From: Antedon bifida
Lineage: Eukaryota; Echinodermata; Crinoidea; Comatulida; Antedonidae
Direction: 5' to 3'
NCBI GenBank assembly: GCA_963402885.1
Contig: OY727096.1
Location: 14,489,820 to 14,553,819 of the forward strand
DNA length: 64,000 bases
In this document: positions 16,901 through 61,661 of the stretch, piece after piece
Position numbering within the stretch: the stretch's first letter is position 1
Layout of the letters: the number at the start of each line of letters is the position of its first letter
Program-made: the position numbers and the translations under genes
The notes under the pieces: model-generated
What the model was told of the DNA's origin: nothing
The model's input: the letters and a program-made list of their open reading frames with translations, nothing else
The model's database searches: none

Positions 16901-19900
16901 CACCCGATTATCGGTGTATCATAGAATTGTTGGGTAATACAACATCACATACATACTGTATATGCAATATATGTGTTCTTTTTTAGTTAATTACCTCCAT
17001 ATTCTCAGCTGTAAGGGTGACTTTCAAGCCTGTTCCTGACCCAGTAGTGTTTACCAAGAAGTCCGTCTTCAATTCATCTCCAATTCCGTAGTAGGTTGTC
17101 GAATCTTTTACGGTTGCGCCCGCATCCATGATGATGATGGGAGCTGAAAGTATAAGTTGCTGTTATCAATAAAAAATTAGATAACAATAAAAATAAGAAC
17201 AATTATTATTCAACATAAAAGTAAAATCCACAAAAAAAAATGTATTCGTTGAAAAACTTACTGCACTATTTAACAAGGCAAAATTGACCAATACAATTGC
17301 AAGAATACAATCAGGTGTATTATAAATTTATCTATACGATGGTCTGCTATCAGATTATTTAAATTATTTGTACTCAATTACACTTTATAGCGTTTTTGAA
17401 CAGTTAAATGCATCTAAAGGATGTTTATTACTTATAACTTAATAGTTTGTTGGCAATAATGTGTAAATACAGTTGTTTGAATCTAAATCATATTGTTTTA
17501 AACAATTATTCATTATCAATTTAAAGCTTGATTCCCATTAGAAAAATACATCCTCGCGTTTTCTTTTATTTGTTGGCAGAAACGGGGAAGATCCGGTAAA
17601 TTTATTCACAATCGCCTCTATTTTGGGTTTATATTGAAACGCGAATCTGCGCGCAATGCATTCCGGTATTTAAAGCTAGCTGCTTAAATTATTATAACCG
17701 ACTTCTTTTTCAGATTTCTACCCGTTTAAAGACAACAAAAATGATCGCGCAATATAGGTAAGGCCTATTTAGGGTTCATTTTTACAAAAAAAATGTAGTC
17801 TGTGATTTTAAAATAAACCATATATATAGGGAATGCGTCTTTTATCAAAATGTACTTGATGGAACCCTTGTTCGCCAAAAATTAAACAACTTTCGCCCCA
17901 TAATATTATGATAAGGTAAACATATCTTATTTCTATCAGGTCAAAGTTTAATATGTTACTCTCCAATCCTTTACGCGATATTTCTTTTTGTTGGGGACCC
18001 CTCGTGAAACGTCTCAAAATAAACATGAATATTCATTAGTCATATCCATAAGGCTGTGGCGTCCTTTTCCACTTACCAACTTCTTTTCTTGCATTATATT
18101 ATTTATGTTCATTATCAGTTGTATATTTATTATGCTACTTTGTATTTTGCTTTATTATTTGTGGAAATAAATATTATTATCATTATTATAAGGTGTGACG
18201 TAAGAATTGAGCTAACTACAATTCGTTAATGCAAACGATTTCTGTCGAGCCGTCTGTGTAGTCGAGTGGATAAGACTATGGATTTTACATGTCGATGTAT
18301 GGGGTTCGGCTCCCATGAGCTACTTCTTTTACTTTATCGTGAGAGAGAGATTATTTAGAGGGTTAGGTTTAGTTATATTTAAGAAGTACTTCGGCTATCT
18401 TTCACATGGGGTCCCCAACTTATGCTTATGAATCACAACACGAAAATATTTCATCGACTTAAAATTATTTCGGGAACTGAACATCGCGTCCAATTTCGTC
18501 TTACATTGTTTTGTTCCAAAGAGTGTTTTTACCAGCACATTTGACTTAATTGTGAGTGTAGGTACTTAAAAATGGTAAATTAAAAATTGGCTTGTTGACC
18601 ACAAATATACTTTACTATTATACTAGGCCTAGTATACTGAAATAGAAATATAAAAGCAACGCTAATGCAATGTGTGCCATTTGCATCTTTAACTACAATT
18701 TGAGTTAGCAATTTCATTTTAATATTAAAATTGAATATTTACTTGTTAAAATATATAATCCACTTGGTCTATTAAGTCGACTATCGCTACTTTCCTTTGA
18801 TGACACTCCAGTTGTTCTATCAAGTTTATATATACCACCGAAGTAGTTTGCCCAGTACAGATAGCTTCCATAGATATTAATCCGAAGCGGGTAATTCAGC
18901 CCAGGTATAATCGTTCTTCTGTTAGTTCCGTCGAGGTTAGCTTCCTCAATTAACTCACTGACGTGATCACACCAATACATCTTTCCATCTTGAGAATAGT
19001 GAAAAACAAAATGAGAGAGAGAGAGAGACGTATACGATTGAATACTGTACTTGAATACGCCTATTAAGTTTTAACAAAACGATAATTTGAAGCACGTGAC
19101 CTTTTAGTAGGCGCGCAAAAATGGGTTATCATGCATTTAGTTCAAATGAAAAAAAGTTCTCAAGAAAATGAATCACAATGTACAACGTAAACAAAATGTT
19201 ATAACTCTGTAACTGTAAGTATAGCTTTGATTATGGGGTCTAACCAACTGTCATACTTTGTGCCCAACGAGTCAAAATATCATTCTGCGCATGCTCATGT
19301 GTTTCTGAAAGTGCGCAGGATTGTCCTTTTACTCGAAAGACGCGTGGCGCATCGTGTAAACACAAAGTCGCTAATGTCAGGAAGTAAAGTAAGACGCCGA
19401 CTCTACTACATGCAGTACATTCAATCTCAAAGTGATAGCCTAACCCCACGTACATTTGACATGATTTTGTAGTATCATGCACGAGCAATACAATGCTGAG
19501 CCAGTACATGTCACGGATGCGCACACATTGACTACATATATGGAGCGTGCACAAGGTTAGCTTCCTCAATTTCGTCAGTACATTCATCATACTACTATTC
19601 TTTTCTTTCTTGAAAATAGTATTTCAACACAGTAAGGAAAAGAGTATGAATTCAATTGAAAATGTTTGATAATAGATGTTCAAATAATTTCACTTGGCTC
19701 GTATGAATATTTTTTGATGAAGTTTCTTTTTTTTTCTAAGCTTAGAAAAACAAGGCCATATAGATGGCTGCAGTGGCGTGCTCAAGTTAGTGTTTACCGA
19801 CCGACCGACAAACCGGCTGAAATAGTGAGATGTAGAGTTCAACAAAAATGGCATGAAAAGTTAAGAGCTCACATGTCGGCCATCCTGGAAACAGCACATA

Positions 19901-22900
19901 ATATTGAGGAAGCTGTTATGTCTCTAAGCTTCTTATTTCGTTTCGTTTCCCAAGCTGAGACTCGATCTCGGTACCACCGAGCCATACACAACTGACTAAA
20001 AGTTGTAGAAAGATTCCTCCGTGTATTTACTATGCAGTAACCACTTTGGTGCAGATAGATTATTACATACCCCAATGAATTATAACTTTTTACTATGATG
20101 AAATCTTTAAAAATATAAAAAAAATGATGCACTGTCAAACTATATACTATTAAATGTAATATATGAACATTTTAAGGAAGAAAGTTAATGATAAGTTTGT
20201 TATTTCGGCCTATGAAAATGTCATAATTTGTTTGATTGTCGAAATTATTTTTTTTAAATTTAATATACAATTAGTGATGACTTAATCAACTTTTGTTCTC
20301 TTAATTTCATAATAAATCATACATATGATACACTTTAAGAAACTGAAATGCAAAATAGGTGTTCCCGAGCATTAACGATTAATTTTAAAATTTAGCATAT
20401 TTTCACCATTTTGTTAACTTACACGTACGTGCGTAGCCTGTCACTTTTATAACGTAATTTCGAGTTGAAAAGTGAATCAAAATGATGATATTATTAAAGA
20501 ATGGTTGTAAAACAGAAATCGGGCAAAAAGAGTGCATATTAACATTTACCGCGCAGTGCGCGTGCAAAAATCTGCGCACTCATGGCAATTTTTTAAACGC
20601 TTAACGCTTAAAATTGCATGAAACGTACTCTTATTTCATCGATAATAAATTTTGAAAATTTTAAGCGCGCGTACGCATGCGTTACATGCGCTACGCACGT
20701 AATTGTATTGCCATATGATGATTAATGCCCTGAAATTTTTGAGTACCATATTTTATTTAATTGTGATTCATGCTGGTGAAGATATGATTACAAACGTGAT
20801 TTCGTTAAATCGTGTGTAGACCGCGAAATTTTTGATTGCGCACCGTGAAAACATAACCACATCCTTTCCTGGCCATAATGAATATACTGTGAAAAATTGA
20901 CTTAGCTAGATGAAAGTGATATCAAGACAAAGCCATATACAAGTTAGTGTTTACCGACCGACCGACATAGTGAACTGTAGAATCGCGTTGCACGCGACTA
21001 AAAAAGAAACTTCATCTCAAAAAAAATAAAATGTACTTAGAAGGGATTAGTTGGTACCAATAGTTTCACTTATAAAGAATATATTGTGTAACATCCATAG
21101 CTATGGCAAGCCTCAGCTGTCTGAAGTATTCAAAATATTATATTATTATATCATTTTTTTATTATATTATATATTGTATTGTAATGAATTATACGTTTTG
21201 CATTATATTACTTGGTTTTAGCATTATATTATATCTATTTCTAATATATTATGTGAAAAATGTAACAAATTATTGACTTTTTGTATTATATTATTCGGTT
21301 TTGGCATTATATTATGAACATTTACTATTATATTATTAATAAAATACATTATATTATAATATAATTGTATTATATTAAACCCATTTACCTTACTTTATAA
21401 CATACAACATTATTATATTATACGGATTCGTTAGTTATATTATTATTTTGTATGATGTTTATTATACGTCACGGCTCATTTCAGTTCTTCTAACTCTTTC
21501 TCTCCCTCCCCCTGTTCACTAGCAATCAGCGGCAGAATCTGAATTGTGTGACTGTTGAAGAATAACTATACTACGTACTAGGCCTAGCCTAGGCCTACTA
21601 GGGGATCTAGCCTAGACGTAGCTAGTTAGACAAGTGACTAAGGACCACCGGACAGCTACAACTAATACTACAATACAATAATACTACTAATGCAATAACT
21701 ACTACTGCTAATACTTAGGCCTAGCTAGTAGAGTACTAGGTAGGTTAGCTACTACTAGGCTCTAGGGGGGTTAGGGCGTATGTATGATGTTAACTACTAG
21801 GCCTAGGCCTACTAGTACTAGCCTAGGCTAGGCCTAGACTTAAGTTGTAGTAGGCTAGGGCCGGGCCTGCTGCCTTAGGCTAGGCTATAGGCTACTACTA
21901 CTACTACTACTAGGCAGTCAGCCCATGATGGTTACGAGTAAGCCAAAATTTTGAATATATGTAAACCAAAATTTGGGTACGAGCGAGTTGGCATGGGTAC
22001 GGGTTGACCTGTATCCTTCTTTCTAGCTAATCGTACTAGGCCTAGGCCTCAAGTAAGTCTACGCTACCCAGTCCGGCTACAATATGGTCTATTTTGTTTT
22101 ATAGCTTTATTGATAGCTGGGTTCAAATCTGGGTTGGGACGGCTTTTTCTCATTCTAAAACAGAGTTCCTTATCATAATAAAATAATATATGAATTTATT
22201 TGTAATAGTACCTAGGCCCTAATTGCCATTGCATTTATTATTATTAATTATATATTATACGGTTACCCCTTAATTATACTATAGTATAATTTCCTTGTTA
22301 TATTTTACAATATTTTCTTTATAATTCTACAATTTTGTCTTTCACAGCACAAATTTATCATACTGTATTTGTCCAAGCTACTCCAGCTACATGGTATTGC
22401 CTTGAGGCTAAACTACACGGTATACTGGCACTACCATCATTCCTGGCTCGTCAACCTGGACCACATAAGCACAGTTTCAGTTTCAGTTTATTTACCATTT
22501 CAATTTCTGAACATAAGAGATGAACAACTTATATGGATGGATAACCATAAGAGCGAAGCTCGTTTACCGGTCACCCGTTAGTGCAGTGACATTACGGACA
22601 ACATAAAGACAGGACAAAGGTGCAATACATAACAAGACATGTGAACACTTGTGTTTGCAACCCCTTGGATAAAATAATATATTTATATAAAGGAGAAAGA
22701 TAGATATTATAATATTTCTTTTTTATCATACAATACATAGTACCTATTGGTATTATATCTAAAAATACAAAGGCGGCTAACACAGATAGTTCCATATATA
22801 CAGTACTCTCTTATAAATAGATGTATCTCTCCAATCTACCTAATCTAATAATAGTACTATTAGCATACTACTATACACTTTGTAGACAAGAAGTAAGTTG

Positions 22901-25900: not shown

Positions 25901-28900
25901 GTTAGGATTCCATTCATTTCAACAATAAAAAATATTCAAAATATCCTGCCAGTTTGCGTTCAAGAGTACAACCTGCTTAGTTTTTAATACGAGTACTGCT
26001 TTCTATACACATAACTTTGATTTCTGCAACAAAAAAAAAATCTCTGTAATAATGTACTTTAATTACTGCAATAATCTAGGTATAGATTATGTTGACCGGG
26101 CCAGTGAGAGGGCGTTCGACTGTACTACCATAAGTCCTCTAGGTGTATACAACTTACTTCTTGTCTACAAAGTGTATTGTAGTATGCTAATAGTACTATT
26201 ATTAGATTAGGTAGTTGGGAGTAGATTGGAGAGATACATCTATTTATAAGAGAGTACTGTATATATGGAATTATCTGTGTTAGTTGCCTTTGTATTTTTA
26301 GTTATACTGTAATACCAATAGGTACTGTGTATTGGGATGCAATTCAACAGTTATGAATAAAAATAGTCCTATGTACTCTGTATGTTGGAGGAAATAAGCA
26401 TAAGAGCAAGTCTTGACCACAGGGTGTAAGTCAGTCACTATTTTGAATCAGTAGTATGACTTCTTAGGATTTAATTAATTTTAAAATTATCATTGTATGA
26501 TCGAAAAGAAATATTATAATATCTAACTTTCTCCTTTATATAAATATATTATTTTATCCAAGGGGTTGCAAACACAAGTGTTCACATGTATTGCACCTTT
26601 GTCCTGTCTTTATGTTGTCCGTAATGTTACTGCACTAACGGGTGACCGGTAAACGAGCTTCGCTCTTACGGTTATCCATCCATATAAGTTGTTCATCTCT
26701 TATGTTCAGAAATTGAAATGGTAAATAAACTGAAACTGAAACTGTGCTTATGTGGTCCAGGTTGACGAGCCAGGAATAATGGTAGTGCCAGTATACCGTG
26801 TAGTTTAGCCTCAAGGCAATACCATGTAGCTGGAGTAGCTTGGACAAATACAGTAGAAATTTATGAGACTTGGTGTGTGATGATTCAGTATGATAAATTT
26901 GTGCTGTGAAAGACAAAATTGTAGAATTATGAAGAAAATATTGTAAAATATAACAAGGAAATTATACTATAGTATAATTAAGGGGTAACCGTATAATATA
27001 TAATAAATAATAATAAATGCAATGGCAATTACTTATATTATGTATACATTACAATATTACAAATAAATTCATATATTATTTTATTATGATAAGGAAATCT
27101 GTTTTTGAATGAGAAAAAGCCATCCCAACCCAGATTTGAACCCAGCTATCAATAAAGCTATAAAACAAAATAAACCATATTGTAGCCGGACTGGGTAGCG
27201 TAGACTTACTTGAGGCCTAGGCCTAGTACAATTAGCTAGAAGGATACAGGCCAACCCGTACCCATGCCAACTCGCTCGTACCCAAATTTTGGTTTACTTA
27301 TCCAAAATTTTGGCTTACTCGTACCCATCATGGGCTGACTGCCTAGTAGTAGTAGTAGTAGTAGTAGTAGCCTAGCCTAAGGCAGCAGGCCCGGCCCTAG
27401 CCTACTACAACTTAAGTCTAGGACTAGCCTAGTACTAGTAGGCCTAGGCCTACTAGTAGTTAACATCGGTTATCAGACGATCGGGACCACGGACGATCGG
27501 GCCCAAGACGATCGGGCCCAGAAAACGTGGTCCCGATCGTCTTCAGCGTTGGGCCCGATCGTCTCATGCGTTGGCCCGATCGTCTCATGTTTTAGGAACC
27601 ATTTTGGTCCCGATCGTCTCATTCGCTGGGCCCGATCGTCTTAGCGCAGGGCCCGATAGTCTTGTGTTTGATATGGTAAAGTCGATCGCCTTTTATTTTG
27701 GTTCCGATAATATCGGGTATCGGTATTCGGTATGAAGCGTTGCTGATACGCTTTTGCGGTTGTAATTGGTTCTGGTCAATATTTGTTAGGTATAACTATA
27801 AGTATAAGGGATAAATGTTTATTTAGGCCTAATAATGTATATAATGTTTGTTTTCAATTTATTTTACAGGTGGTTGCAAAACGTTGGTGGTGAATGTGTG
27901 CTCTTTGAAAATCATTGTAAAAAAATATCAGAAATTAATAGTTAAAATAGTTTATAATTAGTAATACTAAGAGTATTTTTTACCAATGAGACGTTCTATG
28001 CATACAAATACAAGTAGGCCTGTTGATTGAGGAATGAATATAGTACCGTAGCGTATCATGACAAGACACTATGGATAGAAGAATATAAATAAAAAGGTGG
28101 GATTTACCCACAAAAGTGTACCAACCAACGGCATTACCATTATGTATAATAAAGACACACTTTTTTTTATTTGCTTTTTATTTTACTGCAACTATTTTAT
28201 GACAGAGAACATAATTTAAAAAGTGTCATAAATTCAAACTGTTTCCACTTTGGTAGGCAACTGTTACCGCTTTGATGTTTAGTTCGTAACACGCTACGTT
28301 TTATAAGGGGAATCCCCGGATTGTGGCATGATCAACAAAATCATGTGCTGAAGAACAACAGGGGAAGGTTACTCGTCTCATCTTCTACTACCACCACATG
28401 AAATTATTCGACCATTGACATTTATTATATTGATTAATAATTACATTTAAACATCAATTAGTATAATTATAAACAATCATATTTGGAAAAGCACATCGCC
28501 TCTCCTCCTCACCTGTAATAATAAAGTAAATGAAATATATAATTAGCATAATTAAATAAAAATACTCATCGTCTAAAAATATACAGACGGTAAAATAAAT
28601 AATCTACAGTAGGCATACCTATAATATAAAAACGATCACGAATATTTAGTGGGCCAAAATATACAAAGAAAATAGCGCGATGCAATAAAACCCAATCGAT
28701 TAAAAAAACACGACCGATAATATGATAAAAATTGCATAGCTAGAGTGGCGCGCGCCATAAAAAATTCCAACAGTTGGTTTAATTGCGACCAAAATAAAAC
28801 GTGCCCGATCGTCTTATTTGTTGGGCCCGATCGTCTGGGCCCGATCGTCTCTGGTCCCGATCGTCTTAAAACCTTGTTGGGCCCGATCGTCTCCCGCTTT

Positions 28901-29959
28901 GGGCCCGATCGTCTTACAATGGGCCCGATCGTCTGGGCCCGATCGTCCGTGGTCCCGATCGTCTGTTCCCCGTTAACATCATACATACGCCCTAGAGCCT
29001 AGTAGTAGCTACCTAGTACTCTACTAGCTAGGCCTAGGTAGTAGCAGTATTAGTTATTGTAGCAGTATTAGTTATTGTAGTAGTATTATTGTATTGTAGT
29101 ATTAGTTGTAGCTGTCCGGTGGTCCTTGGTCACTTGTCTAACTAGCTACGTCTAGGCTAGATCCCCTAGTAGGCCTAGGCCTAGTACGTAGTAAAGATAA
29201 TTAGTTATTCTTCAACAGTCACACAATTCAGATTCTGCCGCTGATTGTTAGTGAGCAGGGGGAGGGAGAGAAAGAGTTAGAAGAACTGAAATAAGTCGTG
29301 ACGTATAATAAACATCATACAAAATAATAATATAACTAACGAATCCGTATAATATAATAATGTTGTATGTTATAAAGTAAGGTAAATGCGTTTAATATAA
29401 TACAATTATATTATAATATAATGTATTTTATTAATAATATAATAGTAAATGTTCATAATATAATGCCAAAACCGAATAATATAATACAAAAAGTCAATAA
29501 TTTGTTACATTTTTCACATAATATATTAGAAATAGATATAATATAATGCTAAAACCAAGTAATATAATGCAAAACGTATAATTCATTACAATACAATATA
29601 TAATATAATAAAAAAATGATATAATAATATAATATTTTGAATACTTCAGACAGCTGAGGCTTGCCATACATAGCACTTATCAACCACCGCCATGCCTAAT
29701 TATTATAGGTACGTGGATGACAATATTTCCTTTAATTTTGCTGTTGTACCTTTTTATATCTGTATTTTATACTATTTTTTTATGTATCAGTAGTTTTATA
29801 TGAATTTTTTACACTACATAATGTATATTTTTATATAACTTTTAAAACTTATTCTAAGATGCTGTTTTTGCCTTGAGGAAGAATTTCAAATTATAAATGT
29901 TTTGACAATAAAGTTATCTTGTATCTTGTATGTATAAATAGCATAAATATATATATGCA

Positions 29960-29997
<38 letters not shown>

Positions 29998-32574
29998 AAT
30001 ATATATATGTATAGCATAAATATCAGCCACGATACTTAAAGCATAATTTTTGTTTTTCATTAAGCTCTGCAGGCTCAAAAGTTGGTACACATTTATTTTC
30101 TAGGTCTGACTATAGTCTACACAGTGACTCATGTTGCAGGTATAAGCAACGTAGCCCGAAATGTTGTCTATAGTAAGCGACTTTATGTACAGGCATCAAC
30201 AATCAGCATTAGCTATAGTTAGTAATAGTCTACACATATTACATACGGTAGTACTATTATATAACTTACATGCATTCATGGTCATACAGTAACTTACCGG
30301 GAACTGATAAAACAAGTCCTGTTGCATATGGTACACTTGTTACTAACACGGTCCTTGTACTCAAGTCATTTAACTTCGCTCGCTCTATCTTACGGTTGCT
30401 TGTATCAGTCCAGTACAGGTATCTAAGTATAAGTATAATATATGTTACTACATTAACGTTCCGTTACAAGTAGTTCACATCCCTTCCACGGATAAAAAAT
30501 TTATTGAAACTTACGAAATTACTGAAGCAGATAAGTGATTTACGAATATGTGAAAAGAAATGTTAACAAATCTTTATTACTTCCTTTATTGAGTGGTATT
30601 AATGTAATATTATTACGTTTTTGCTTACAAATCAAAAAGTAAGAATAAGAATGGAATGTGAAGTTCGAAGTTCATAGTTGATATTCCTCCAACGTGAAAA
30701 GAGGTTTACTGTGACATTACACGTTAGATATATCAAACATAACTAATAAGAATTGTTCTGTACGTTCCATCCAGATGTATTACTTTAATGCGGCCAGTCT
30801 TTTACTAATTTAAATTATGTTACAAGTGGCAGGAGCGGATGTAGAATTTTGATAAAGAGGGGACCCCCGGAAAAAAAATTTTCTAGACGCCCGGAGATAG
30901 CATATGAGGCGTTTTGGCCAGTCGATTCTTGTCCTATAATTATCTGAATATAGTGGGTTTTATAGACCATATTTAATATAGGCCTTTTTTTTTGCGCCAA
31001 TAGCCTAAAGCCTGTTTTCCTGTCGACGAAGCGTTACGACTAGGACTTGCATTAAATTTTCAAATTGTTAAAGTTGAAAATAAATTAACGATAACGATGA
31101 TCGAGCCGGACCGCAAATTTTTACGCGATCGTTAATGGTTTCTTGGATTTTCGATGTTGCTGTACACATGGACGTGAAGTTTTGCAAAGCCAAGGCCGTT
31201 CACGCGCAGCCAGCCGGGCCCGTGTGAAAATTGAAAATGTTACGGGTTTTGATGCTTCAACCCAACCGGCGCATAAGACATGATTTCGCTGATATATTAA
31301 TCTCGGCTTTACACTAAGATAAACATTAAATTCAATTATTTTAATTATATTAAAATTTAGTTTTACACTTGTTATTTTGAAATATCAGACTTTAAAAGAG
31401 TACAAAAAACATCGTCGCCTTGTAAAAAATCAAGAATTGTCAGCGCGTACGTATTTTTTCACAAACTATGATGACGTAATTTATGAACTAGGCCTATTTG
31501 ATCGGTCAGTCAGATTTATAGAATTGGCCTATACTGGACAGATTATATAGAAACTACTAAAGCTGAGGTATTATGAATGAAATTCAATCCATTGAATGTT
31601 TTAAACGTAAAGGCAATCATTCTTTTTTAAACAGTCTTATTATTAAATTTTAACGAATTTAAATGTATGGTTTAGATGCATTAATAATAATATACAGTTC
31701 AACCGCGATGTGATCACACAGTTCATCTCCTTTGGATGAGTAAAAAAAATAGATAGATGTACGTTAAGAGAGACAGACCCGTTAGCTGTATCTATCTCAA
31801 TTGCATGTGGATATCTTAATCCTGTGTCAAACAGAATTGTTCTGTTTGTTCCATCCAGATTGATTACTTCAATTCGGTCTTCGCCAACATCTGTCCAATA
31901 AAGTTTTTTTCCAGCTCCATCAACGGCTAAATCACGCACACCTTAAATAATGATGACAATTAAACAATTACTGCAATCCCAACCTATGAAATTGACTTTA
32001 TATGCTATAGACTAAAACTGTGTTAACACATTTCAATTGATGCTCAACCCTCTACTAGGGTTATGTATTATATTATACTAAACTTTTGCACGGCGACGAA
32101 AACGTTTACTTTAACGGATGACGTCAGCATTCTACTCATTTGTATAACAGTGTAGTTCATAATTCAGCGAACAGTTGCGTTTTAACGTACTTGTTTGTAA
32201 ATTTGATTTGAACGCAACGCATGTGTCGCGCACGCAACATACGCCACTCGCATTAAAATAATTGCCTTGGGCCGACAAGAGCCCTACCTAGCTAGGCATT
32301 TTAACTTGCATATTATTAGCTGATAAATAGCATATTGCGATAAACAAATATTATTGTTTGACTTAATTATAAACATAAAACAATTTTTTTTTTATTAAAA
32401 TAATTAAATTTACCATTTTGTTTTCTTAATTATTCTGCAGAAAAGTAATGATCTTCCATGTTTCGATACCTTTGGTTAACGTTTTTCACGTCGCTATTTT
32501 TCAGAAATAAGGTTCTCGACGCAATTAACTATATTTTTTCTTAATGCTTGCTCACGTAGACAGAAAAAAGTATG

Positions 32575-32647
<73 letters not shown>

Positions 32648-44176: not shown

Positions 44177-44182
44177 TTTATT
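44177..44182 (-). promoter_or_regulatory. Candidate polyadenylation signal, gene B
   Basis: AATAAA on the minus strand about 300 nt past the stop, in the same context as in gene A. Confidence 0.3.
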
Positions 44183-44482: not shown

Positions 44483-44541
44483 TTAGCAGCAGTCTTTTTT
44501 CATTTTCAAAACTCCATTATACTTCAGGCCACTGTCGTCAT
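44483..44541 (-). CDS. Gene B exon 16
   Basis: Same sense as gene A exon 16, ending KMKKDCC and TAA. Confidence 0.78.
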
Positions 44542-47500
44542 CTGTTGAAAAGATAGAAATATGTTAAATGAGCACAGTAGCATAAAACCTAATCATTATT
44601 AGTAGTATATTCTTGCCAGTTGATTTCGTATGACGTAGAACTGGTTATTTATTTCGTTTTATTCAATGGTCAGCACATTTTTAACATTTAAGATTGTGGC
44701 ACTCAAAAAAAAATACATTGTAGTGTAATTATTTTAGTTTTCAAACACTGAAGCAAAGACAGGTAGCTCAAGTTTGACCAATCACAAGCGACATTTCAGA
44801 TGAGGCGTCAAATTACTCGCATTGGACGTACATGACAGTGATTCCTTAGTGGGAGCTAAATAATGATATAAACTCACACAGCCAGTTGTTTTCACTAGTT
44901 CCAGCCGTCTTGAAGTCCGGCAAACTTTTTGTCAAAGAGTCCCAGGCGTCTTTACTGATAAACACCCACGTTGCACCATGATCTTTACTGCGCATGTAAC
45001 TACGCATGTCCATGTGAATTCCATAGATAAGTCCTGTGAGCTGGTCAGATCCAATGACATTGTGCAGGTTCATTTGTAGAGCTATTGAAGAATATTTATA
45101 TTTTTATACATATTATGATAATAGTATAGGGATAGATTTTTCATTTTGAAATAAGAAAAATATTTGTAAATTCAATGTTCCGTTTATGTGGAAAATAAGA
45201 GAAAGAAATTATTGTGTGGCCGCTAGGCATTCAAAGCAGGATGTATTGACAAAATATATCTAGGCATAGGCTTAACAATTCATTGCTGTCTGAAAATCCA
45301 AAGATCTCCAGGAGAAAGTGTCAGTGTTAGGCATATTACTTATTGATTTATAAAGTTAAAGATTCCTCTTGCTGTCCATCGATGTGTATGATGACCCGTG
45401 CTAGTTAGGCTCTAAGTATGGAAGGTTTTGATATATCAGCCATCCTCAGGTCAGTGCTATTCTTGGAGCGACATTACGAAAACAATCCTCATTTTTTTAC
45501 CTTTCCAGCGTCCATCTGGTGGATTATCTTGTACATAGCAGGACGGAACAACCTTGTCTGATAGACGTCTAACTGAAGGGTTACAAGCAAAAATGACGTC
45601 GTTATCCGGATTGTCCAACTTCTTAGTTATGACAAAACCCCGGTCATAATAATCTGTCAAAATAATTTTTAAAAATCGATAAATTGTATTGTGTGAAAAA
45701 TATTGTAAGTGTTGATTCTTCGACAAATTGCTAAAAGTCACACGGATAAAACCATGTTAAATAGGAACGAGTTGTGCTCGGGGATTGCTGGTAAAAGTGC
45801 GTCTCACATTTACTAGTTTCTTTTTGGGTTTTAAGGGATATTCGTTTAGACTAATTTAGATTTGTTGTATGTATTGTAGATTGAGAAGTATTATATATAT
45901 TTAAGCTCTTAGAGTTTTCTAATGATGCGACGGAACGTCTTGTGCAATATTAGCTATACTATAGTCAATTCTTTTTTTCCAAACTTACCTGGAACTGGGC
46001 ATTTACTAGGATCACTGACACACACAGTATGTTTTCCGTTTTCACACTTATGAGCCCCAGCCACGCAACCATCGCACTGGCTAGATCCCCCATCATAGTG
46101 GCAGACGCCTGTCTGAGATTCGGTCCATTTGCTGTACCTCATCACAGCTTCTTTTGCATATCTTAGTACTGAAGTTTCTGAAGAAAAACGATGTAATAAA
46201 ACAATGGACAACCTTACTTATTTTGCTGAAACCCTCTTTGTAATAGACAATTTGTGCGTTTCTTTATTACAAAATTGCAGAGGTTATTTAGTGGTTTTCC
46301 ATGGCGATCAAGTCTATGATAGTATATGTAGTAATTACCGAAAAACCAAGTGCCCAATAACAACGCAACAATTTGTCCTTAGGTCAAAGTTTAAAACATT
46401 ATTGCATTTATCCGATAATTATCCGATTTGAATGAGATAATTATCGCTTAATTTTTCTGGAGCGGAATTAGTTAAACCCCGTTTCCACATGGACTTTATC
46501 GGTTAATTATCGGTTAAGATTATCGGTTAATGTTTGGCTGCAGAAAACCGGTCTTGTGCAGTACGTAAGAACCATGGATTTAGCGTACCGTATTCAAAAT
46601 CTAACATATGATACTCGCAGATAGCTGGTAGGATAGCGGTGCAGTCCATTATGTCCCAGTCACCAAGATCAGTACTGACATCCCTTGTATCGTAGACATC
46701 TACAAAAGCCGCAGCTCCGCAGTCTTCAGTCACACTTGTTCCGGGTCTGTTTGGTAGCCATTTTGTAAAAGACGCCGATGACCCGTTTATCCACTTGAAA
46801 GTATCAGTGCCCTAGAACATATACATTGTCATAATTGAAAAGTTATAATGAGTATAATACACGGCATTTCATGTGATTGATCATAGACTTGCCCTGTCAA
46901 AGTTACGTCCCCCTTCTCGTGTAGTTAGCATGGCCAGTTCATTACGGCGATTATGAGTGACACGGGGTCTGATAGCCATACTCACCCCAACGTCTTTCAG
47001 CCCAATCCAGTATTTGTATGGCGAGAGTGCTGGAACGAGGTCGCGAAGAAATTGCTGTTCACACATATCTTCAATCATGACTAATTGCGCATTGTCTGCT
47101 TCACAGGCCGTCTTTGCTGCATTCCAAGTTTCTAGCGTGTCGTTGAACACTTTGTAACACGTTTCTTTGTAAGGTGTGTAACCAGACCGACATAAATCTA
47201 GAAGTACAGTGTAAGAGTTATAGAGTAATTTTCTTACATGGCTTCCCAACATACAAGTTTTTAATTGGAATTTTCTTTCCAATTGATCGATACTTTCTTG
47301 GGTTTTTTTGCCTCTTTCATTTTTTATATAACTGAATCATCTTTTTTTATACATTATGATTTACTGTATTATATCTCTATAAAAAAAATATTTATATATA
47401 AAATATCAGAAATTATAATGTTTTACTCAAACTTGAATATGAAAGAAATAAATGTTTATTTGATTGATTGATTGATTGATTCATGTTTCTAAGAATCATA

Positions 47501-50500
47501 GACACACTCTTAATTACAACGTAATATATCAGTCACATTTAAACTTGTATCAACGAAAGTTGGTTTGGTCGAGGAAGTCATCGTTATGATACACATGTGA
47601 TCCTGTATCTACAACTTCTCTATGTTACAGGACAAATTGTCGATACTTTACCGATATTGCAATCATAATAAACATAATTCAGATTTGATAAGAATGGCTT
47701 AATGTTGTGAAAGAAACATTGTCAATTTTTTAGGGGCCTTATGTTTAAAAACAGCAGTTAAAATACGGCACATGCAATCCTCACAACCTGGTGAGATGCG
47801 CCTAATATTCATTTAAACATGGTTAGAATATATGCAGATATGCAATGTATAACTCTTTCAGATTAAACTGACACACTATCGTACACTTACCACCATCACC
47901 AACATCTGGTCTGTCCGAATACATAAATTGAAAAGATTTTGTGCAAGAAAGAACTTTAGCGCTATTAACAGTCGAGAACCACAACAAATCAGCCACGCCA
48001 ACAAAGCGACGAGTGCCCGGAGCAGTTTTTCCGTTTTTGTCGATTCCTAGGCGTACACGGAAAGTTGGTTTTGCGGCAATCTGAATGGTTCCAAGCTGTG
48101 AGATACATGCGAAATGTTACTACGTCTGTCTTTGATTTCATTTAGAAAACCCCTGTCGACTTATATCATAAGTCATTAAAACAGAGAAAGTTAAACACAC
48201 CACCCAGCGAAATAAAGGCTGTAATAATTGTAAACCTTTAATAACAAATCTAAAGACTGAAAAAATCGCACCCAGCCAAGATGGAATTTGTTATCCTGAT
48301 GCAGACATACGTTACACTTCATTAATAGGTATATTAATGTATTCTGAACTTGTTACACTGAAGGTACTACACTGGCCATCCACCCGTTTCCTAATCTTTC
48401 AAAGTGTATCAGCGCTGTAGGTAAATACCTAACATACTTAAAAGTACTCTTCCAAACCTTATTAACCAAGCTGACCGTGGGCCCTACACATTGAATCTGG
48501 TTGATTGTAGAATAACTTACATTAAATCGAACAGGAGATGGTCCAGGCATGCTTGGGTTTACCGCTGGTGACTGCAACAGCTCTGTGTATTCTGATTCAA
48601 GTTTAATATATTGCACATTTTTCGACTTCAATATTGTGAAAGTTACATCTACTGCTTTTCCCGTTGAATCGTCATCGTGCCAAATACTAATCAGTATTAT
48701 TACATCATCACTGAAAATAACAACCAACAAATACTATTATCGAAATCAAATTAGAGTGGTACCACAATCACTATATCCCAATACTTATAGGATGTCAAGA
48801 GTGATTATGTGCCGTACTTTGAGAAAAGGGCTTATCTACAAAAAGCTACTTTTGAGTAATTGACCAAAACGTGTTTTCTGTTTTTCATTACAAAAGTCCA
48901 TGTAATATTTTATTTTCAAATGAATATATTTCAAAAGTACATTATTGAAAAATATCTGACATAATATTCAATTATTACTTTTTTTATTTTGGGGGTCAAA
49001 TTGCAGATAAAGCCTTTTTCCAAATTATTTGTAATTAATAATTGCGGGGAATACTTCGAAAACAGGGCACTTTTGCAGTTTTTTTGTTTGATTTTTGATC
49101 AATATTTACCAAAACATTTAGTAACTTTACCAAACTTACCCTTTATAAAATGAATTAGTTTCGTATGTTATCTTGAACGACATCTTAGGCTTCGGAACTT
49201 CATTAATCAGCGTATAAACTGGTACTTCTCCAACCCAGATGTGAGCTCCGTCGCCAATCTGCATTCCAAGTCCTAACCAGTGCTCTGATCCATTAACCAC
49301 CGCGTCTGTATCGTCTAGGACAACTTCAATTTCTAACGCCAAGATGTTATTGGAAGCATCTGGGTCGTTCACTTCAATAAATCCGTCGAACTGTGTCACC
49401 GACCAGTCTTTAGGGATGCCGAAATCATCATCGTTAGCAATGTACTGCGTCTGAGGAGCGTAGTAGCAGAACTCTGTCGAATACGTACAGGATAAGGAGT
49501 CACTGACATATGAAACGGACACTTTGTTGATACTCCACTGCTCGCTTGTCTTGTTAGTCGTTAAGTTGTATGGTAGTGTGACTTCAATTGTCGGATCAGC
49601 GGTACCTTTTGGAAACTCAACAATAAGGTTCATATGCACCTTTTGACCAACGTTAACATAAACATTACCATCTGCAGACTGCTCAGTAATGTTCATCACG
49701 AAATGCGGTAGTTTACTAAAAACTGCGTTTGACACTCCTTCTGCGGTGACTAAGCCATTAAATATGTCAGTTAATTCAGCAGTTATAGTTACACGTAAAA
49801 TAACTCCAGGTTTTACATCGGCTACAAAGAAATTGATATAACGACAATAAATATAGATTATTTTTGTATATCTAAAATAATGCAAATTAGGAAGACATTA
49901 AAACTATAATGTTCACTTCAAAGACGTATTGGTGTTATATTTCTGCCAAATACATGCCATAAACTACGAAAGCATAGTGTTTGTTATCACTTGCTGACGT
50001 AATTATGATTTTGTACAACAAAGCAATGTATACGGTTAGGAACTGTTATAATGTGATATGGTTGGTTGGGGTCTGCACATTAATTAAAAAAAAAAAAACT
50101 TTTACAAAAGAATATCAATTTGATAATAAATATGATCTGATACGCTAACGACATTAGTTTTATATGAACAAGGATGTGGTAAAACTCATTTGGGTTCAAC
50201 AGCTTACAGTGTAAATTATTAAAAAAAAACAAACAAAAGAATCGGTTAAAATACCATTAACAGTGGAATTGATGGTCCCTTCAAATTGAATGTCAGATGA
50301 AAATAAACTGTTATTACTAAAAGACAAAGTAATCTCTGATGCGGAGACCAGGGTGACCGTGAAGTTGCTCTGAAAAATACAATGAATCCGTAACAACATC
50401 TCATAGCAAATATGACTTAAAAACAAAACACAGCAGATCTGTCAAATGAAGAAGAACCCCAGAAATAGGTAAATATCTTAAGCGGTAATGTGAATAGAAT

Positions 50501-53500
50501 CTCTGAGATTAAAGTTGGCAAAGTCGAATCTTCTACTTCATTTTTTCCGCACGCCCAACCAACATTTATATTATAGAGAAAAGACCTATATCTATTGTTT
50601 GACATATCATTACAGTTGTTGTGAAAGGGTCTCACGCTTGAATACTCTGTCCAGTTTGCTCATTTGCATGTAAATCAGCTGGTTGAAATGCATGGATGAC
50701 CTAACCAGAATAGGCTAGTTAGGTGACTTGATGTGTGGAAACATGCTTGATGCATAGGAGTACCCTGTACTATAAACAGTATTTACTCTAGAGGAGTACT
50801 GGTACTGGACATTGGGTCTCTGTAGTGGTTGTAGTACTGCGGGACTGAATAAGGTGAGTGTATTTGCTTGCTTTAGTAGCCTAAAATCACAGCACAGTTA
50901 TATTTAATTATTTCACTGCTAAAATCACACGTCACACTATTTATTAGGACCACAACATTACCCCGTTAACCAATATTTTGAAAAAATACAAATCAAAATT
51001 ATACCGTCATGGTTGAGTCGGTATTTCCGTTTCCTGTTAAAGTCCATATAAAAGGATCTGCAGACAGGTCGAACTGAAAAAGATGTTACTATAATAAATA
51101 ACTCCCGATTATCGGTGCTGTATCATAGAAATAGTGGCTAATACAACATCACATGTGTTTCACATGTTTCTCCTGGTATCATAGCATAACCAAATATTCC
51201 TGATACTTGGAAACTATATCTCGAAGATACAGCACTGAGAATCGAGTAATAATTACACCCAATCGGTATTTAGTACTATATACATTATGTTCCGCGTGTG
51301 TTATTTCTTTGATAAACTAACGTATACGTATATTTATCCATGTCTACATACGTATAACGAATATGTTTGAATTCGTAGCTTGTTTCATTTGGCCAAATTC
51401 ATTTACGTCCGTCAGTAGGACAGACATGTGATCCATTGTTCGCAGTAGGCTTACGTTTGATTTTAGTTCTTTGTCGTTTTATTTAAACTTTTTTTTAAGA
51501 ACTCAGAACTTCAGTGATGAAATATGATATAGAAATATATTTTGAACAATTGTAATTGTTAATTTTAATTTAAAAATCTCAAAGGTATAGTTAACGTGTA
51601 AAATGCAATCCATACAAAACGCATAGAAAATCCGGATCACGCGCGGAAATACCGTCTCGCTACTACACGTACACATGTGACGTATACGCGAATTTCACCC
51701 ATTATGCGACTACGGAGTTTTCCCATTCTACTTTTTCTATAATAAACTCATAATACCCTTCATATGCATTCTCAACTGAGAATCATCGACGCACATGTCA
51801 ACGACTGTGCAAATTTTGAAAGACTAATAATCGTTATTTCCGATGCTGTATGCAACTATTGCATGAATACAGTACCACCAAAAAAAACAACGAAGTGGAA
51901 AACATTACGGCCAAAAGATTATATATAGACATTTGATATATAAATTAGTGGCATGGTCAGAAACACTGTATATACAATATATGTGTTCCTTTTTAGTTAA
52001 TTACCTCCATATTCTCAGCTGTAAGGGTGACTTTCAAGCCTGTTCCTGACCCAGTAGTGTTTACCAAGAAGTCTGTCTTTACTTCATCTCCAATTGCGTA
52101 GTAGGTTGTCGAATCTTCTACGGTTGCGCCCGCATCCACGCTGATGATGGGAGCTGAAAGTATAAGTTGCTGATATCAATAAACAATTAGATAATAACAA
52201 TAAAAATAAGAACAATTATTATACAAATATTTAATGTTTATTCGTTGAAAAACTGACTGCATTATTTAACGAGGCATAATTGACCAATAAAATGGCAAGA
52301 ATACAATCAGGTGTATTATAAATTTATCTATACGATGGTCTGCTATCACATTATTTAATTATTTATCAATTACATTTATATCGTTTTTTAATAGTTAAAT
52401 GCCTCATCTAAAGGATATTGATTAATTTTGTTTGCATAATTATTTCGTTGTGTCCAACCTAATAGTTTGTTGGCAACAATGTGTAGGCCTAAATACAGTT
52501 GTTTGAATCTGAATCATATTGTTTTAAACAATTATTCATTATTAATTTAAAGCTTGGTTCCCATTATAAAAATACATCCTCTCGTTGTCTTTCATTTTTT
52601 GGCACAATCCATTACTACAGAATGGGGAAGATCCGGTAAATTTTTTACACAATCGTCTCTATTTTAGGTTTATTATTGAAGCAAAACGAAACAATCTTCG
52701 CACAATGCATGTCGGTATTCAAAGCTAGCCGCTTAAATTGTTATAATCGACTTCTTTTTTTCAGATTTTTACCCGTTTAAAGACAACAAAAATAATGACA
52801 ATAATAGGCCCATTTATGGTTCATTAAAAAAAAAAAACCATACACAATATGTGGGGAATGCGTTTTTTATCAAAATGTACTCGATGGAACTCTTGTTCGC
52901 CCAAAAATTAAGCAACTTTCGCCCATTAGGCCTAATATTATAATCAGGTAAACATATCTTATTTCTATCAGGTCAAAGTTTAATATGTTACTCTCCAATC
53001 CTTCACTATGCTTATGAATCACAACACGAAAATATTTCGTCGATTTAAAATTATTTCGGGAACTGAGTGAACATCGCGTCCAATTTCGTCTTACCTTGTT
53101 TTGTTCTAAAGAGTGTTTTTACTAGCACATTTGACTTAATTGTGGATGTAGGTACTTAAAAAAGGTAAATCAAAAATGAGCTTTTTGACCACAAATATAC
53201 TTTACTATTATACTATGCCTATACTGAAACAAGCAACGCTAATATAACGTGTGCCATTTGCATCTTTAACTAAAATTTGAGTTAGCAATTTCATTTGAAT
53301 ACTAAAATAGAATATTTACTTTTTAAAATATATAAGCCTCTTGGATCATTATGTCGACTATCGCTAATTTGTGGTGATGATACTCCAGTTGTTCTATCAC
53401 CTCGATATATACCACCGTTCGTGTCTGTCCAGTACAGATAGTTTCCATAGATATCAATCCACATCGGGTAATTCAACCCAGTTTTAATCGTTCTTCTGTT

Positions 53501-56500
53501 TGTTCCATCAAGGTTAGCTTCCTCAATTAACTTACTGACATAGTCACACCAATACATCTTTCCATCTTGAGAATAGTGAAAAATAAGAGAGAGAGACGTA
53601 TATGACTGAATACTTTTTAACAAAACGATAATTTCAAGCACGTGACCTTTTAGTAGGCGCGCAAAAACGGGTTATCATGCATTTAGTTCAAATTGAAAAA
53701 AGTTCTCAAGAAAATGAATCACAATGTGCAACGTAAACAAAATATAACTCATTGAGAAAAAGGAAAGTGTACTCAACTGTAAGCATAGCTTTGATTATCG
53801 GATCTGAGCAACATACTCTGTGCCTAACGAGTAAAAATGTCATTCTGCGCATGCTCATGTGTTTTCGGAACGTGCGCAGGATTGTCTTTTTACTCGAAAG
53901 ACGCGTAGCGTGTCGTGTGAACGCAAAGTCGCTAATGTCAAGAAGTAAAGTAAGACGCCGACTTTACTACATGCAGTATTGACATGATTTTGTAGTATCA
54001 TGCACGAGAAATACAAATGCTGAACCAGCACATGATCCGTACACATTTGGAGCGTGCACAAGGTTAGATTCCTCAATTTCGTCAGTACAATATGCATCAT
54101 ACTACATCTTTCAACACAGTAAGGAAAAGAGTATGAATTCAATTGAAAACTGTTGATAATATAGTTTGATCATATGTGTGCTTATCCTTATTATATTATA
54201 AGTTTTAACAAGTCAAATTATGTTAAAATGTACTTAGAAGGGATTAGTTGGTACCAATAGCTTCACTTATAAAGAATATATGTTGTAACATCCATAGACA
54301 ACAGCCACCGTCATGCCTAATAGGTAGGTTTCTTGAATTTTGCTGTTGTACAATTTTATATCTGTATTTCATAGTATTTTTTATATATTTGTAGTTTTAT
54401 ATGAATTTTCTACACGACGTACTGTATATTTTTATATAACTTTTTTAACTTATTCTAAGATGCTGTTTGTTGCCTTGAGGAAGAATTTCAAATTATAAAT
54501 TTTTGACAATAAAGTTATCTTGTATCTTGTATGTATAGCATAAATATCAGCCACGATACTTAAAGCATAATATGTTTTGTTTTTCATTAAGCTCTGCAGG
54601 CTCAAAAGTTGGTACACATTTATTTTCTAGGTCTGACTATAGCCTACACAGTCACTTATGTTGCCAGTATAAATAAGCGGCGTAGCCCGAAATGATCATG
54701 TTTTTTTGTAGTAAGCGATTTTATGTATAGGCATCAACAATCAGCATTGGAAATAGTTACTAATAGTATACATATATCACATACGATAGTACTATTGCTT
54801 ACATGCATTTAACATGGTCATAGAGTAACTTACCGGGAACTGCTAAAACAAGTCCGTTTGCGTGTGGTACGCTTGTTACTAAGACGGTCCTTGTACTCAA
54901 GTCATTTACCTTCGTTCGCTCTATCCTATCTTTTCCTACATCAGTCCAGTACAGGTATCTAAGTATAAGTATAATCTATGTTACTACATTAACGTTTAAG
55001 TGGTCCCTACCACGGATAAAAATATATTGAAACTTACGAAATTACTGATGCAGATAAGTTATTAATGATTTACGAATATGTGAAAAGAAATGTTAATAAA
55101 TCGTTATTACTTTCTTTATTGAGTGGTATTAATGCATTATTATTACGTTTTTGCTTAATAATCAAAAGGAAGAATCAAACGAATGGAAATGTGAAGTTCA
55201 TATTTGATCTTCCTCCAACGTGACAAGAGGTTTACTGTGTATAGAAGATGACATTACCCGTTAGATATCAAACATAACTAATAAGAATTGTTCTGTACGT
55301 TCCATCCAGATTTATTACTTTAATACGGCCAGTCTTTTACTAATTTAAAGTATGTTACAAGTGGCAGGGCGGATGTAGGATTTTGATAAAGAGGGGACCC
55401 CGGAAATTTTTTTTTCTGGACGCCTGGAGATAGCATCTGAGGCGTTTTGGCCAGTGATTCTTGTTATAGGCCTATAGGCCTAATTATCTGAATATAGTGG
55501 GTTTTATAGACCATATTTAATATAGGCCTACGGAACTGTTTTTTTTTTTGCGCCAAACTACGACTGTTTAAAAAAAGGTATAATTTTTACAAATTTTTGA
55601 ACTTTTTCATCAAAAACGCACGTAAGTTATCCAATTCAACGTGCCCGTATGACGTAATTTTAAGTCAAAAATGTTTAAAAGTTGGTAAAATTACTAGAAA
55701 AGGCTGAAAAAACAGAAATCACGCGAAATAACATGTTTTCAACACTACGTGCGCACCGCGCGCGTAAAAATATGACTTTATCCAAATTCCCTCACTTGCA
55801 CTGATGAAGGGCTAGTGTTGCCCGAAAGCTCTGCTAACTTTTCTGGCTGTTTACTTTATCGTTTTGATTTAGCTTTTCGCTTTTTTTTTTGTATCTCCAT
55901 TGAGATCCAGCCACTGATACCCACAGCATTGTCATTTTTTCAGTAATTTGCCTTTGGATTTATATATATATATATATTTATCGTTTCAAATTAATTAATT
56001 AAATTTCAGTATATCACCGGGCGGTTTAGAATTAATGTTCTTTGCCTGATTTGTTTATATATATAAAAGTATCTCTTCGGAGATCCCGCCTCGTGAATAA
56101 AAATACTGTAAGATGAGGGCGTATCAATTTGATCTCTGGTGCGCGTGCGTACAACTGAGGACTAGTGCTGTTCCGCCGTACCACGCCGAGAATGTTAAAG
56201 AGTCGCTATCCAATCGAGTTCGAACAATACCATGAAAGCCCCAGTGGTCTAATGGTTAGGACATCTGCATATCAAGCAGGCGGTCCGAGTTCGAGTCTCG
56301 GTTGGGGCGACTTTTTCTCATTCTCACAGATTTCCTCATCTTTATCGTTTCAAATTAATTAATTAAATTTCAGTATATCACCGGGCGGTTTAGAATTAAT
56401 GTTCTTTGCCTGATTTGTTTGTATATATATATTTATATATATATATATATTATATTACAAAAGGTGGGGGCATGGTAAGTATAATCTGTAATACAGTGTA

Positions 56501-57022
56501 ATATCTGTATAACATGTGACACCTGCATAAGCCTACCCTAACTTTAACCATAGCATAGTACAGACGCCATGTGAAACATGTGGCAATGTATTTATAGAAT
56601 TGGCCTATACTGGACAGATTATATAGAAACTACTAAAGCTGAGATATTATGAATGAAATTCAATCCATTGAATGTTTTAAACGTAATGGCAATCATTCTT
56701 TTTTTAAACATTCTTATTATTAACTTTTAACGAATTTAAATGTATGGTTTAGATTCATTAATAATAATATACAGTTCAACCACGATGTGATCACACAGTT
56801 CATCTCCTTTGGATGAGTAAAAAAAATAGATAGATGTACGATAAGAGAGAGTGACATACCCGTTAGATGTATCTATCTCAATTGCATATGGCCACTTTAA
56901 TCCTGTGTCAAACAAATCTGTTCTGCTTGTTCCATCCAGATTGATTACTTCGATTCGGACCTTTTTAATATCTGTCCAATAAAGTTTTTTTCCAGCTCCA
57001 TCAACGGCTATACCACGCACAT
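44483..57022 (-). CDS. Gene B: paralogue of gene A (5' incomplete)
   Basis: Fifteen exons were read on the minus strand: 57022-56860, 54958-54834, 53565-53320, 52153-52005, 51073-51005, 50369-50255, 49821-49140, 48710-48521, 48095-47891, 47197-46986, 46811-46589, 46177-45989, 45653-45501, 45081-44878 and 44541-44483. Borders and phases equal those of gene A; only exons 8 and 13 differ in length, by whole codons. About 994 residues are visible: propeller blades, N-glycosylated beta-rich region, C-type lectin domain, Cys-rich linker and C-terminal domain. The exon for the first blade is not present up to 64,000. Similarity to the A locus ends in a GGTCTGTC repeat element at about 59,150. B may be 5'-truncated, or its start may lie right of the DIRS element. 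All YWTD signatures are intact in B. Confidence 0.78.
44878..45081 (-). CDS. Gene B exon 15 (C-terminal domain)
   Basis: 204 nt. Reads as gene A exon 15 with a handful of changes; donor GTGAGT is conserved. Confidence 0.75.
45501..45653 (-). CDS. Gene B exon 14 (C-terminal domain)
   Basis: 153 nt with YYDRGFVITKKLDNPDNDVI and RLSDKVVPSCYVQDNPPDG. Acceptor and donor as in gene A. Confidence 0.75.
45989..46177 (-). CDS. Gene B exon 13 (Cys-rich linker)
   Basis: 189 nt. Lacks the DEGTPEPV repeats of gene A; it starts TSVLRYAKEAVMRYSKW, then the same Cys-rich stretch. Single acceptor. Confidence 0.75.
46589..46811 (-). CDS. Gene B exon 12 (C-type lectin, second half)
   Basis: 223 nt. Only one residue differs from gene A in about 74 (last codon, His to Tyr). 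Confidence 0.85.
46986..47197 (-). CDS. Gene B exon 11 (C-type lectin, first half)
   Basis: 212 nt with CRSGYTPYKETCYKVF and YWIGLKD. Few changes from gene A. Confidence 0.9.
47456..47482. repeat. (TTGA)n short microsatellite
   Basis: Five to six TTGA units at the edge of a B-only intron insertion (about 47,235-47,480). Confidence 0.8.
47891..48095 (-). CDS. Gene B exon 10
   Basis: 205 nt, near-identical to gene A 14,215-14,419; DVGDG at the end. Confidence 0.75.
48521..48710 (-). CDS. Gene B exon 9
   Basis: 190 nt, near-identical to gene A 14,848-15,037. Confidence 0.75.
49140..49821 (-). CDS. Gene B exon 8 (large beta-rich domain)
   Basis: 682 nt, one codon shorter than gene A (an Ala lost before NDDDFG). 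About 10 substitutions against gene A, half of them silent. Confidence 0.85.
50255..50369 (-). CDS. Gene B exon 7
   Basis: 115 nt, same reading as gene A exon 7. Confidence 0.75.
50612..50897. other. B-only intron insertion
   Basis: About 285 bp between CATTACAG and AGTTATATTT that gene A lacks. No terminal repeats or coding seen. Confidence 0.5.
51005..51073 (-). CDS. Gene B exon 6
   Basis: 69 nt, FDLSADPFIWTLTGNGN; borders as in gene A. Confidence 0.7.
51150..51965. other. B-only intron insertion, unclassified
   Basis: About 0.8 kb with no counterpart in gene A, whose intron here is about 120 bp. No gene or terminal repeats recognised. Confidence 0.5.
52005..52153 (-). CDS. Gene B exon 5
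   Basis: 149 nt with TVEDSTTYYAIGDEVKTDFL; borders conserved with gene A. Confidence 0.75.
53320..53565 (-). CDS. Gene B exon 4 (YWTD propeller blades)
   Basis: 246 nt encoding KMYWCDYVSKLIEEANLDG and YLYWTDTNGGIYRGDRT. The complete YWTD contrasts with YWAN in gene A. Confidence 0.87.
54834..54958 (-). CDS. Gene B exon 3 (YWTD blade)
   Basis: 125 nt encoding YLYWTDVGKDRIERTKVNDL. Conserved splice sites ATACTTAG and GTAAGT. Confidence 0.87.
55801..55837 (+). ncRNA. Hammerhead ribozyme-like core
   Basis: CTGATGA is followed by a bulged A and stem GGGC, a 7-nt loop, GCCC, then GAAA and GC-TCT-GC-TA. That is the core order of a type I hammerhead with a very short stem III, as in Penelope-like elements and retrozymes. 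A convincing stem I is not visible and the bulged A is non-standard, so activity is doubtful. Confidence 0.45.
55977..56061. repeat. Direct repeat flanking the tRNA, left copy
   Basis: About 81 bp beginning TTTATCGTTTCAAATTAATT and ending CCTGATTTGTTT. Repeated at 56,341; period 364 bp. Confidence 0.85.
56238..56309 (+). tRNA. tRNA-like gene, anticodon ATC (Asp/Glu-like body)
   Basis: A full cloverleaf folds. Acceptor GCCCCAG/TTGGGGC pairs over 7 bp with one G-T. The D arm is GTC/GAC. The anticodon stem is TCTGC/GCAGG with loop ATATCAA. The variable loop has 4 nt. The T arm is CCGAG/CTCGG with loop TTCGAGT. A box TGGTCTAATGG and B box GTTCGAGTC are intact, and TTTTT follows 3 nt downstream. 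Positions 35-36 (TC) and the body recall Asp/Glu tRNAs, but A34 is unusual. It could be a functional variant or a tRNA-derived element head. Confidence 0.75.
56341..56425. repeat. Direct repeat flanking the tRNA, right copy
   Basis: Second copy of the repeat at 55,977, followed by a TATATATATA tract as in the first. Confidence 0.85.
56860..57022 (-). CDS. Gene B exon 2 (YWTD blade)
   Basis: 163 nt with IAVDGAGKKLYWTDIKKVRI, donor GTATGT. First exon found of gene B; its phase needs an upstream exon. Confidence 0.87.
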
Positions 57023-61620: not shown

Positions 61621-61661
61621 ACTTACGTTAAACAAGATTAATTTGTATAGTTTATTTTACA

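Follow-up and report, generated by a model that had tools for sequence, protein, structure and literature searches.

The variable recognition domains known in animals are mostly of the immunoglobulin, leucine-rich repeat or fibrinogen type, and in the snail FREPs and the vertebrate major histocompatibility complex (MHC) a variable recognition part is joined to a constant one; in the MHC the introns are homogenised while the binding exons stay diverse. Those cases involve other folds and other genes than the family described here, which we met in a stretch of 64,000 nucleotides of the Antedon bifida genome (C9:14489820-14553819, hereafter the window), where two neighbouring genes on the minus strand, A and B, combine a YWTD beta-propeller with a body that includes a C-type lectin domain. 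The nearest working analogue is fungal. In the HNWD genes het-d and het-e, WD40 repeats are reported to be under concerted evolution, with diversifying selection acting on a few hypervariable codons of the predicted interaction surface, so that the likeness lies in a beta-propeller recognition head, concerted evolution and a small number of selected codons (PMC12222747). The HNWD proteins are NACHT receptors whose WD40 repeats lie within one gene, whereas the Antedon family has its YWTD propeller behind a predicted signal peptide, varies between paralogues and carries a C-type lectin body. The family works like HNWD but is not one: no HET, NACHT or WD40 domain was found in three joined pieces of gene A scanned against Pfam at E 0.1, which returned Ldl_recept_b, Lectin_C and weaker propeller-like families. 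The propellers of LRP5, LRP6 and the LDL receptor belong to the same domain family and bind their ligands on the face that varies here; they are not known as a multigene hypervariable surface, nor to carry a lectin body. SpTransformer (185/333) of sea urchins is a protein not known to be related to the A/B family. It resembles that family in being an echinoderm multigene family, and it is reported to show immune expression as well as extreme diversity (PMC8634487, PMC1988830).

Our reading, to which we give a probability of about 0.72, is that A and B are members of a germline-encoded family whose propeller serves as a variable recognition head with its face under diversifying selection, while the introns and the constant half of the genes are homogenised. 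What was found is a multicopy family with a positively selected variable region and a constant region, the pattern of a germline-diversified recognition family. Exons 2, 3 and 4 differ between A and B at 21 of 163 (12.9%), 17 of 125 (13.6%) and 39 of 246 bases (15.9%), or 77/534 when pooled (14.4%), and the introns of the same half at 267/3960 (6.7%; odds ratio 2.3, Fisher p 1e-8). The contrast on which the initial annotation rested is thus real; residue differences of 22.2, 23.8 and 25.6% agree with its 22-26%. Two of its other figures need correction. Within 200 bases of the exons the introns differ by 3.5-3.8% (exon 2), 8.4% (exon 3) and 6.7% (exon 4), not by 4-6%, and the changes in exons 2-4 number about 19 silent and 57 replacement by the Nei-Gojobori method (NG86), not 12 and 65. 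In the constant half, exon 7 is as close as had been claimed (10/684, 1.5%), but low divergence is not a property of exons: introns at 13.2-16.6 kb differ at 35/1734 bases (2.0%), and some constant exons are less close (exon 5, 4.7%; lectin exon a, 3.8%; exons at about 12.7 and 12.2 kb, 7.9 and 4.6%). Since the introns around exon 7 are nearly as close as the exon itself, the whole tract has been homogenised and not its exons alone. Homogenisation of the lectin half, suggested earlier, is supported, but it reaches the introns as well, and near-identical intron stretches link copies on different chromosomes.

A search of the 315.6-Mb genome returned 37 matches to constant exon 7 at 36 loci on nine contigs, all free of stops; this is a count of exon 7 matches and not of whole genes with a complete propeller. 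At 32 of the 36 loci the match spans at least 227 of 228 residues with 89-100% identity to A, at three the identity is 77-80%, and the copy on C11 is split into two pieces (94 and 79%). Propeller exons gave at least 131 matches. In eight copies (five on C9 including A and B, two on C16 and one on C10) identity to A is 91-100% in exon 7 and the lectin exons, and 70-91% in the propeller exons of the seven copies other than A. All 29 exon 4 copies read, taken from the best-scoring of these matches, are open, 240-246 bases long and bounded by GT/AG ends, and 25 are distinct. Of the 300 pairs that these form, 128 were left out because their flanks differed by more than 20%, and in 159 of the 172 whose 150-base flanks could both be aligned exon 4 differs more than its flanks, which extends the contrast between A and B to the family. 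An assembly or allele artefact is not likely, because A and B share one contig and the family has further copies on other chromosomes. In COX1 on a mitochondrial contig of 15,844 bases, AAA codons occupy positions where Asn is expected to be conserved, and AGA and AGG codons such positions of Ser, pointing to the echinoderm genetic code. Literature searches gave no description of such a family among the matches listed, which were open-licence papers.

Diversifying selection on the propeller face, also proposed in the initial annotation, is supported once the family copies are added. Comparison of codon models M1a and M2a over the distinct copies of each exon gave likelihood-ratio test (LRT) values of 148 for exon 4 (n=25; omega2 6.7 at 13% of codons, M0 omega 0.75), 93 for exon 2 (n=16; omega2 11, M0 omega 1.36), 39 for exon 3 (n=9; omega2 9.8, M0 omega 1.65) and 26 for exon 1 (n=9; omega2 4.1, M0 omega 0.65). 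The controls from the constant half showed no positive class, whether exon 7 (n=8; LRT 0.01, M0 omega 0.22), lectin exon a (n=7; LRT 0, M0 omega 0.39) or lectin exon b (n=8; LRT 0.02, M0 omega 0.09); one exon 7 site is listed above 0.9, which is meaningless given an omega2 of 1.09 and an LRT of 0.01. Because exchange between copies can mislead site models, segments of exon 4 were given trees of their own, and codons 1-21 (LRT 21.9), 22-41 (LRT 60.4) and 42-62 (LRT 32.7) all gave significant results. A tree-free comparison of replacement and silent differences per site (pN and pS) agrees: at 48 loop codons pN is 0.358 and pS 0.197 (ratio 1.82, bootstrap 1.34-2.72), at the 211 other propeller codons 0.062 and 0.150 (ratio 0.42, 0.32-0.54), and pooling over all pairs gives ratios of 1.50 and 0.31. 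Propeller codons outside the loops are under purifying selection.

The position of this variation is best seen on the fold. Spliced exons 1-4 of gene A match PF00058 (Ldl_recept_b) with 93 bits against a cut-off of 21, PDB matches of the propeller include LRP2, LRP4, LRP6 and nidogen, and six YWTD-like motif positions lie in register in a sequence alignment with LRP6 E1; by homology to LRP6 the protein would thus have six blades and a corresponding ligand face. The motif and the strand behind it are largely fixed across copies. The codon directly after the motif is selected in six of six blades, its residue having an entropy of 2.6, 2.4, 3.1, 2.5, 1.6 and 2.2 bits in blades 1-6, so that the earlier remark that many changes follow the YWTD motif holds for the family and for every blade. 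A second variable loop, preceding the next strand, is selected in blades 3-5; in blade 6 it is variable, and not selected in the full-exon test. Together the two loop classes contain 22 of the 23 codons whose posterior exceeds 0.9. The loop definition follows the motif but was made after the variability had been seen, and a list of LRP6 residues therefore provides an independent check: of 12 residues assigned to the LRP6 contact site or top surface (PMC7585440, PMC10089208), eight map to hypervariable columns (hypergeometric p 6.6e-5, LRP6 E1 alignment). The selected codons are accordingly in the loops that bear LRP6 ligand-face residues. Within exon 4, nucleotide diversity at codon positions 1-3 is 0.38, 0.48 and 0.37 for 18 hypervariable codons and 0.019, 0.008 and 0.126 for 50 nearly fixed framework codons, with 14 codons intermediate; in the flanking introns it varies between 0.008 and 0.139 across distance bins, measured on 19 copies upstream and 24 downstream. 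With so few hypervariable codons set in a near-fixed framework, a minority of codons carries most of the excess of exon over intron.

We propose that the signal peptide directs the protein outward, where the propeller would act as a variable recognition head whose ligand-face loops differ from copy to copy, while the constant lectin body may do the shared work of multimerising, sugar binding or linking to effectors. Diversifying selection would recurrently alter the loop that follows every YWTD-like motif, and in blades 3-5 also the one preceding the next strand, leaving the strands and core of the propeller conserved; variable foreign or non-self ligands could be its cause. The introns and constant half would be made alike, and exon segments reshuffled, by gene conversion or unequal exchange that also acts across chromosomes, gene conversion being the likely process. 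Homogenised introns combined with diversified exons would explain why the exons differ more than their own introns.

Several results weigh against this reading. Taken as a pair, A and B have a ratio of nonsynonymous to synonymous rates (dN/dS) of 0.84 by NG86 and 0.90 by maximum likelihood (LRT against 1, p=0.72), and even their loop codons reach a pN/pS of only 0.96; since the ratio does not differ from 1, the two genes alone are no proof of positive selection, and the dN/dS test suggested earlier is silent for the pair and positive only in the site models of the family. Those models were run in custom Python code, unbenchmarked against a standard program, and recombination inflates such tests. 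Codons 63-82 of exon 4 give no signal on their own tree (LRT 0.48). In 13 of the 172 exon 4 pairs the exon is not above its flanks. Codon 26 of exon 1 is a selected site outside both loops; E51, L95, D98 and T240 of the LRP6 list miss the hypervariable columns, as does R28, which we take to be a further ligand-face residue. Finally, silent sites are themselves diverged: exon 4 framework codons, with further variable codons dropped, have a pS of 0.20 against 0.087 in the flanks, and non-loop silent divergence in exon 1 is 0.17. Because the framework pS exceeds that of the flanks, selection on replacements is not the whole of the contrast between exon and intron; given the silent excess, part of the cause lies in older exon lineages that stayed separate as the introns were homogenised.

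As to what the variable head is for, an echinoderm innate receptor repertoire, with the six-bladed YWTD propeller variable at selected positions of all its blades on a single binding face, the lectin body constant, exons exchanged between chromosomes and exon 4 possibly alternative, is a tentative proposal that we put at a little short of even odds. By analogy, a constant half with a ring of selected surface positions is the pattern of immune and self-recognition receptors, here on a propeller fold, and an immune role, in which variable foreign or non-self ligands would drive the selection, would suit it. If true, a constant lectin stalk bearing a propeller whose ligand face is diversified in each blade would be a new recognition scaffold and an animal parallel to the fungal WD40 sensors.

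The strongest alternative leaves the selection in place and changes its source, the pressure coming from reproductive or self/non-self recognition, between gametes or in allorecognition, and not from antimicrobial defence. A head joined to a lectin body would fit both roles, and positive selection is reported on sea-star bindin, an echinoderm fertilisation protein (PMC3605852). Dozens of paralogues with different faces would nevertheless resemble a repertoire more than a single mating key, and we consider this alternative rather unlikely.

A second alternative dispenses with selection. Old exon lineages would be moved by exchange tracts that end at exon edges, so that homogenised introns merely look younger than the exons between them. 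In its favour, the nearest relatives of A and B are not the same in different exons, nor in exons and introns. The upstream flank of exon 4 of A differs from a C10 copy at 31/667 bases (4.6%), where the exons differ at 38/246 (15.4%), and its downstream flank from a C16 copy at 15/693 (2.2%); exon 2 of B has its nearest relative on C16, and the flank downstream of that exon is closest to another copy on C9. Of 528 pairs of two-state sites within exon 4, 209 do not pass the four-gamete test, and linkage declines weakly with distance (permutation p 0.009). The silent divergence of exon 1, and of the exon 4 framework at more than twice that of its flanks, also favours such a process. It does not account for pN above pS in loop codons only, nor for variable positions repeating across blades, and in exons 2 and 3 the non-loop silent divergence is 0.08, close to the exon 4 flanks, where family-wide flank divergence was measured. 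As a sufficient explanation it is decidedly improbable, but exon-confined exchange probably acts together with selection, and the data fit exon lineages that selection keeps distinct as introns and constant half are homogenised. In that respect the family clearly illustrates exons staying distinct between homogenised introns.

Two further alternatives fare worse. Relaxed constraint, with the propeller decaying in many copies and conversion keeping the introns alike, could draw on the mean pairwise dN/dS near 1 of A and B and on the loss of five codons from exon 1 of gene A, which all eight other aligned copies carry, but it is largely refuted and very hard to credit, given that every one of the 29 exon 4 copies is open with GT/AG sites, that non-loop codons are constrained, and that change is clustered, with pN above pS, in loops repeating in register. 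A targeted mutation process with a raised rate at loop codons, suggested by loop codons often differing at two or three bases, is the least credible of all, because silent divergence there (0.197) exceeds that elsewhere (0.150) only modestly, in contrast to a nearly sixfold difference in replacement divergence (0.358 against 0.062).

The exon coordinates of both genes are predictions from splice signals and conservation between copies. Models of exons 2-5 are phase-consistent with GT/AG ends in A and B; phase was computed for exons 1-5, and at the remaining joints of gene A, judged by eye, it is kept. The order in gene A is a signal-peptide exon, four propeller exons, exon 5 and more, exon 7, two C-type lectin exons and cysteine-rich exons. 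The joined lectin exons match PF00059 (Lectin_C) with 62.5 bits against a cut-off of 22.6; exon 7 matched no Pfam family, and AlphaFold2, from an alignment of A and B alone, gave a mean predicted local distance difference test score (pLDDT) of 38 and no usable fold. Judged from the leader peptide, the protein is probably secreted. The features, in window coordinates, are as follows.

34875-34932, minus strand: gene A exon 0, predicted signal peptide MACWKFVCFFLYVLLQLSK followed by G; donor in phase with exon 1; other copies have a similar open reading frame (ORF) upstream of that exon
33270-33503, minus strand: gene A exon 1, propeller blades 1-2; splice and phase model with family alignment
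31779-31941, minus strand: gene A exon 2, propeller blade 3; same basis as exon 1
30298-30422, minus strand: gene A exon 3, propeller blade 4; same basis
18743-18988, minus strand: gene A exon 4, propeller blades 5-6; same basis
16995-17143, minus strand: gene A exon 5, where the constant body begins; splice and phase model
16805-16873, minus strand: gene A exon 6; splice sites and phase
16393-16507, minus strand: gene A exon 6b; splice sites and phase, A/B difference 1/115
15273-15957, minus strand: gene A exon 7, largest constant exon; conserved between copies
14848-15037, minus strand: gene A exon 8; A/B difference 0.5%
14215-14419, minus strand: gene A exon 9; A/B difference 0.5%
13591-13802, minus strand: gene A C-type lectin domain, first exon; Pfam Lectin_C over the joined lectin exons
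13194-13416, minus strand: gene A C-type lectin domain, second exon; Pfam Lectin_C as above
12592-12825, minus strand: gene A cysteine-rich exon past the lectin domain; matches at 68-97% in six other copies
12142-12293, minus strand: gene A further constant exon, the 3'-most modelled, the model being incomplete at its 3' end
64922-65170, beyond the window end, minus strand: gene B exon 1, separated from exon 2 by retroelement ORFs in intron 1
56860-57022, minus strand: gene B exon 2, propeller blade 3; splice and phase model with matches
54834-54958, minus strand: gene B exon 3, propeller blade 4; splice and phase model
53320-53565, minus strand: gene B exon 4, propeller blades 5-6; splice and phase model
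52005-52153, minus strand: gene B exon 5; splice and phase model
49139-49819, minus strand: gene B exon 7, largest constant exon; sequence match
46608-47192, minus strand: gene B lectin exons; sequence matches at 46986-47192 and 46608-46811

Beyond the last modelled exon of gene A, an 85-codon open frame at 11468-11722 is 96-100% identical in six other copies and is probably a further constant exon; its SKDQGATW stretch presumably represents an Asp-box. Outside the window, one family copy has two versions of exon 4 lying 1.15 kb apart (C9:14612815 and C9:14613970), both open with GT/AG ends, which are possible alternative exons. Intron 3 of gene A contains a long inverted repeat (21102-22734 and 26492-29668) whose matched stretches are about 90-93% alike. 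The ORFs in intron 1 of gene B, upstream of exon 2, at 60545-62504 and 63157-63444 look to us like the reverse transcriptase/RNase H and tyrosine-recombinase parts of a DIRS-like element, and those between the two genes at 36439-39467 we take to be the endonuclease and reverse transcriptase of a non-LTR (non-long terminal repeat) retrotransposon. A call of transfer RNA (tRNA)-Asp with the unusual anticodon atc in intron 2 of gene B (56238-56309) is perhaps a tRNA-derived repeat, and at 3313-3867 there is a 278-base tandem duplication that is 98% identical.

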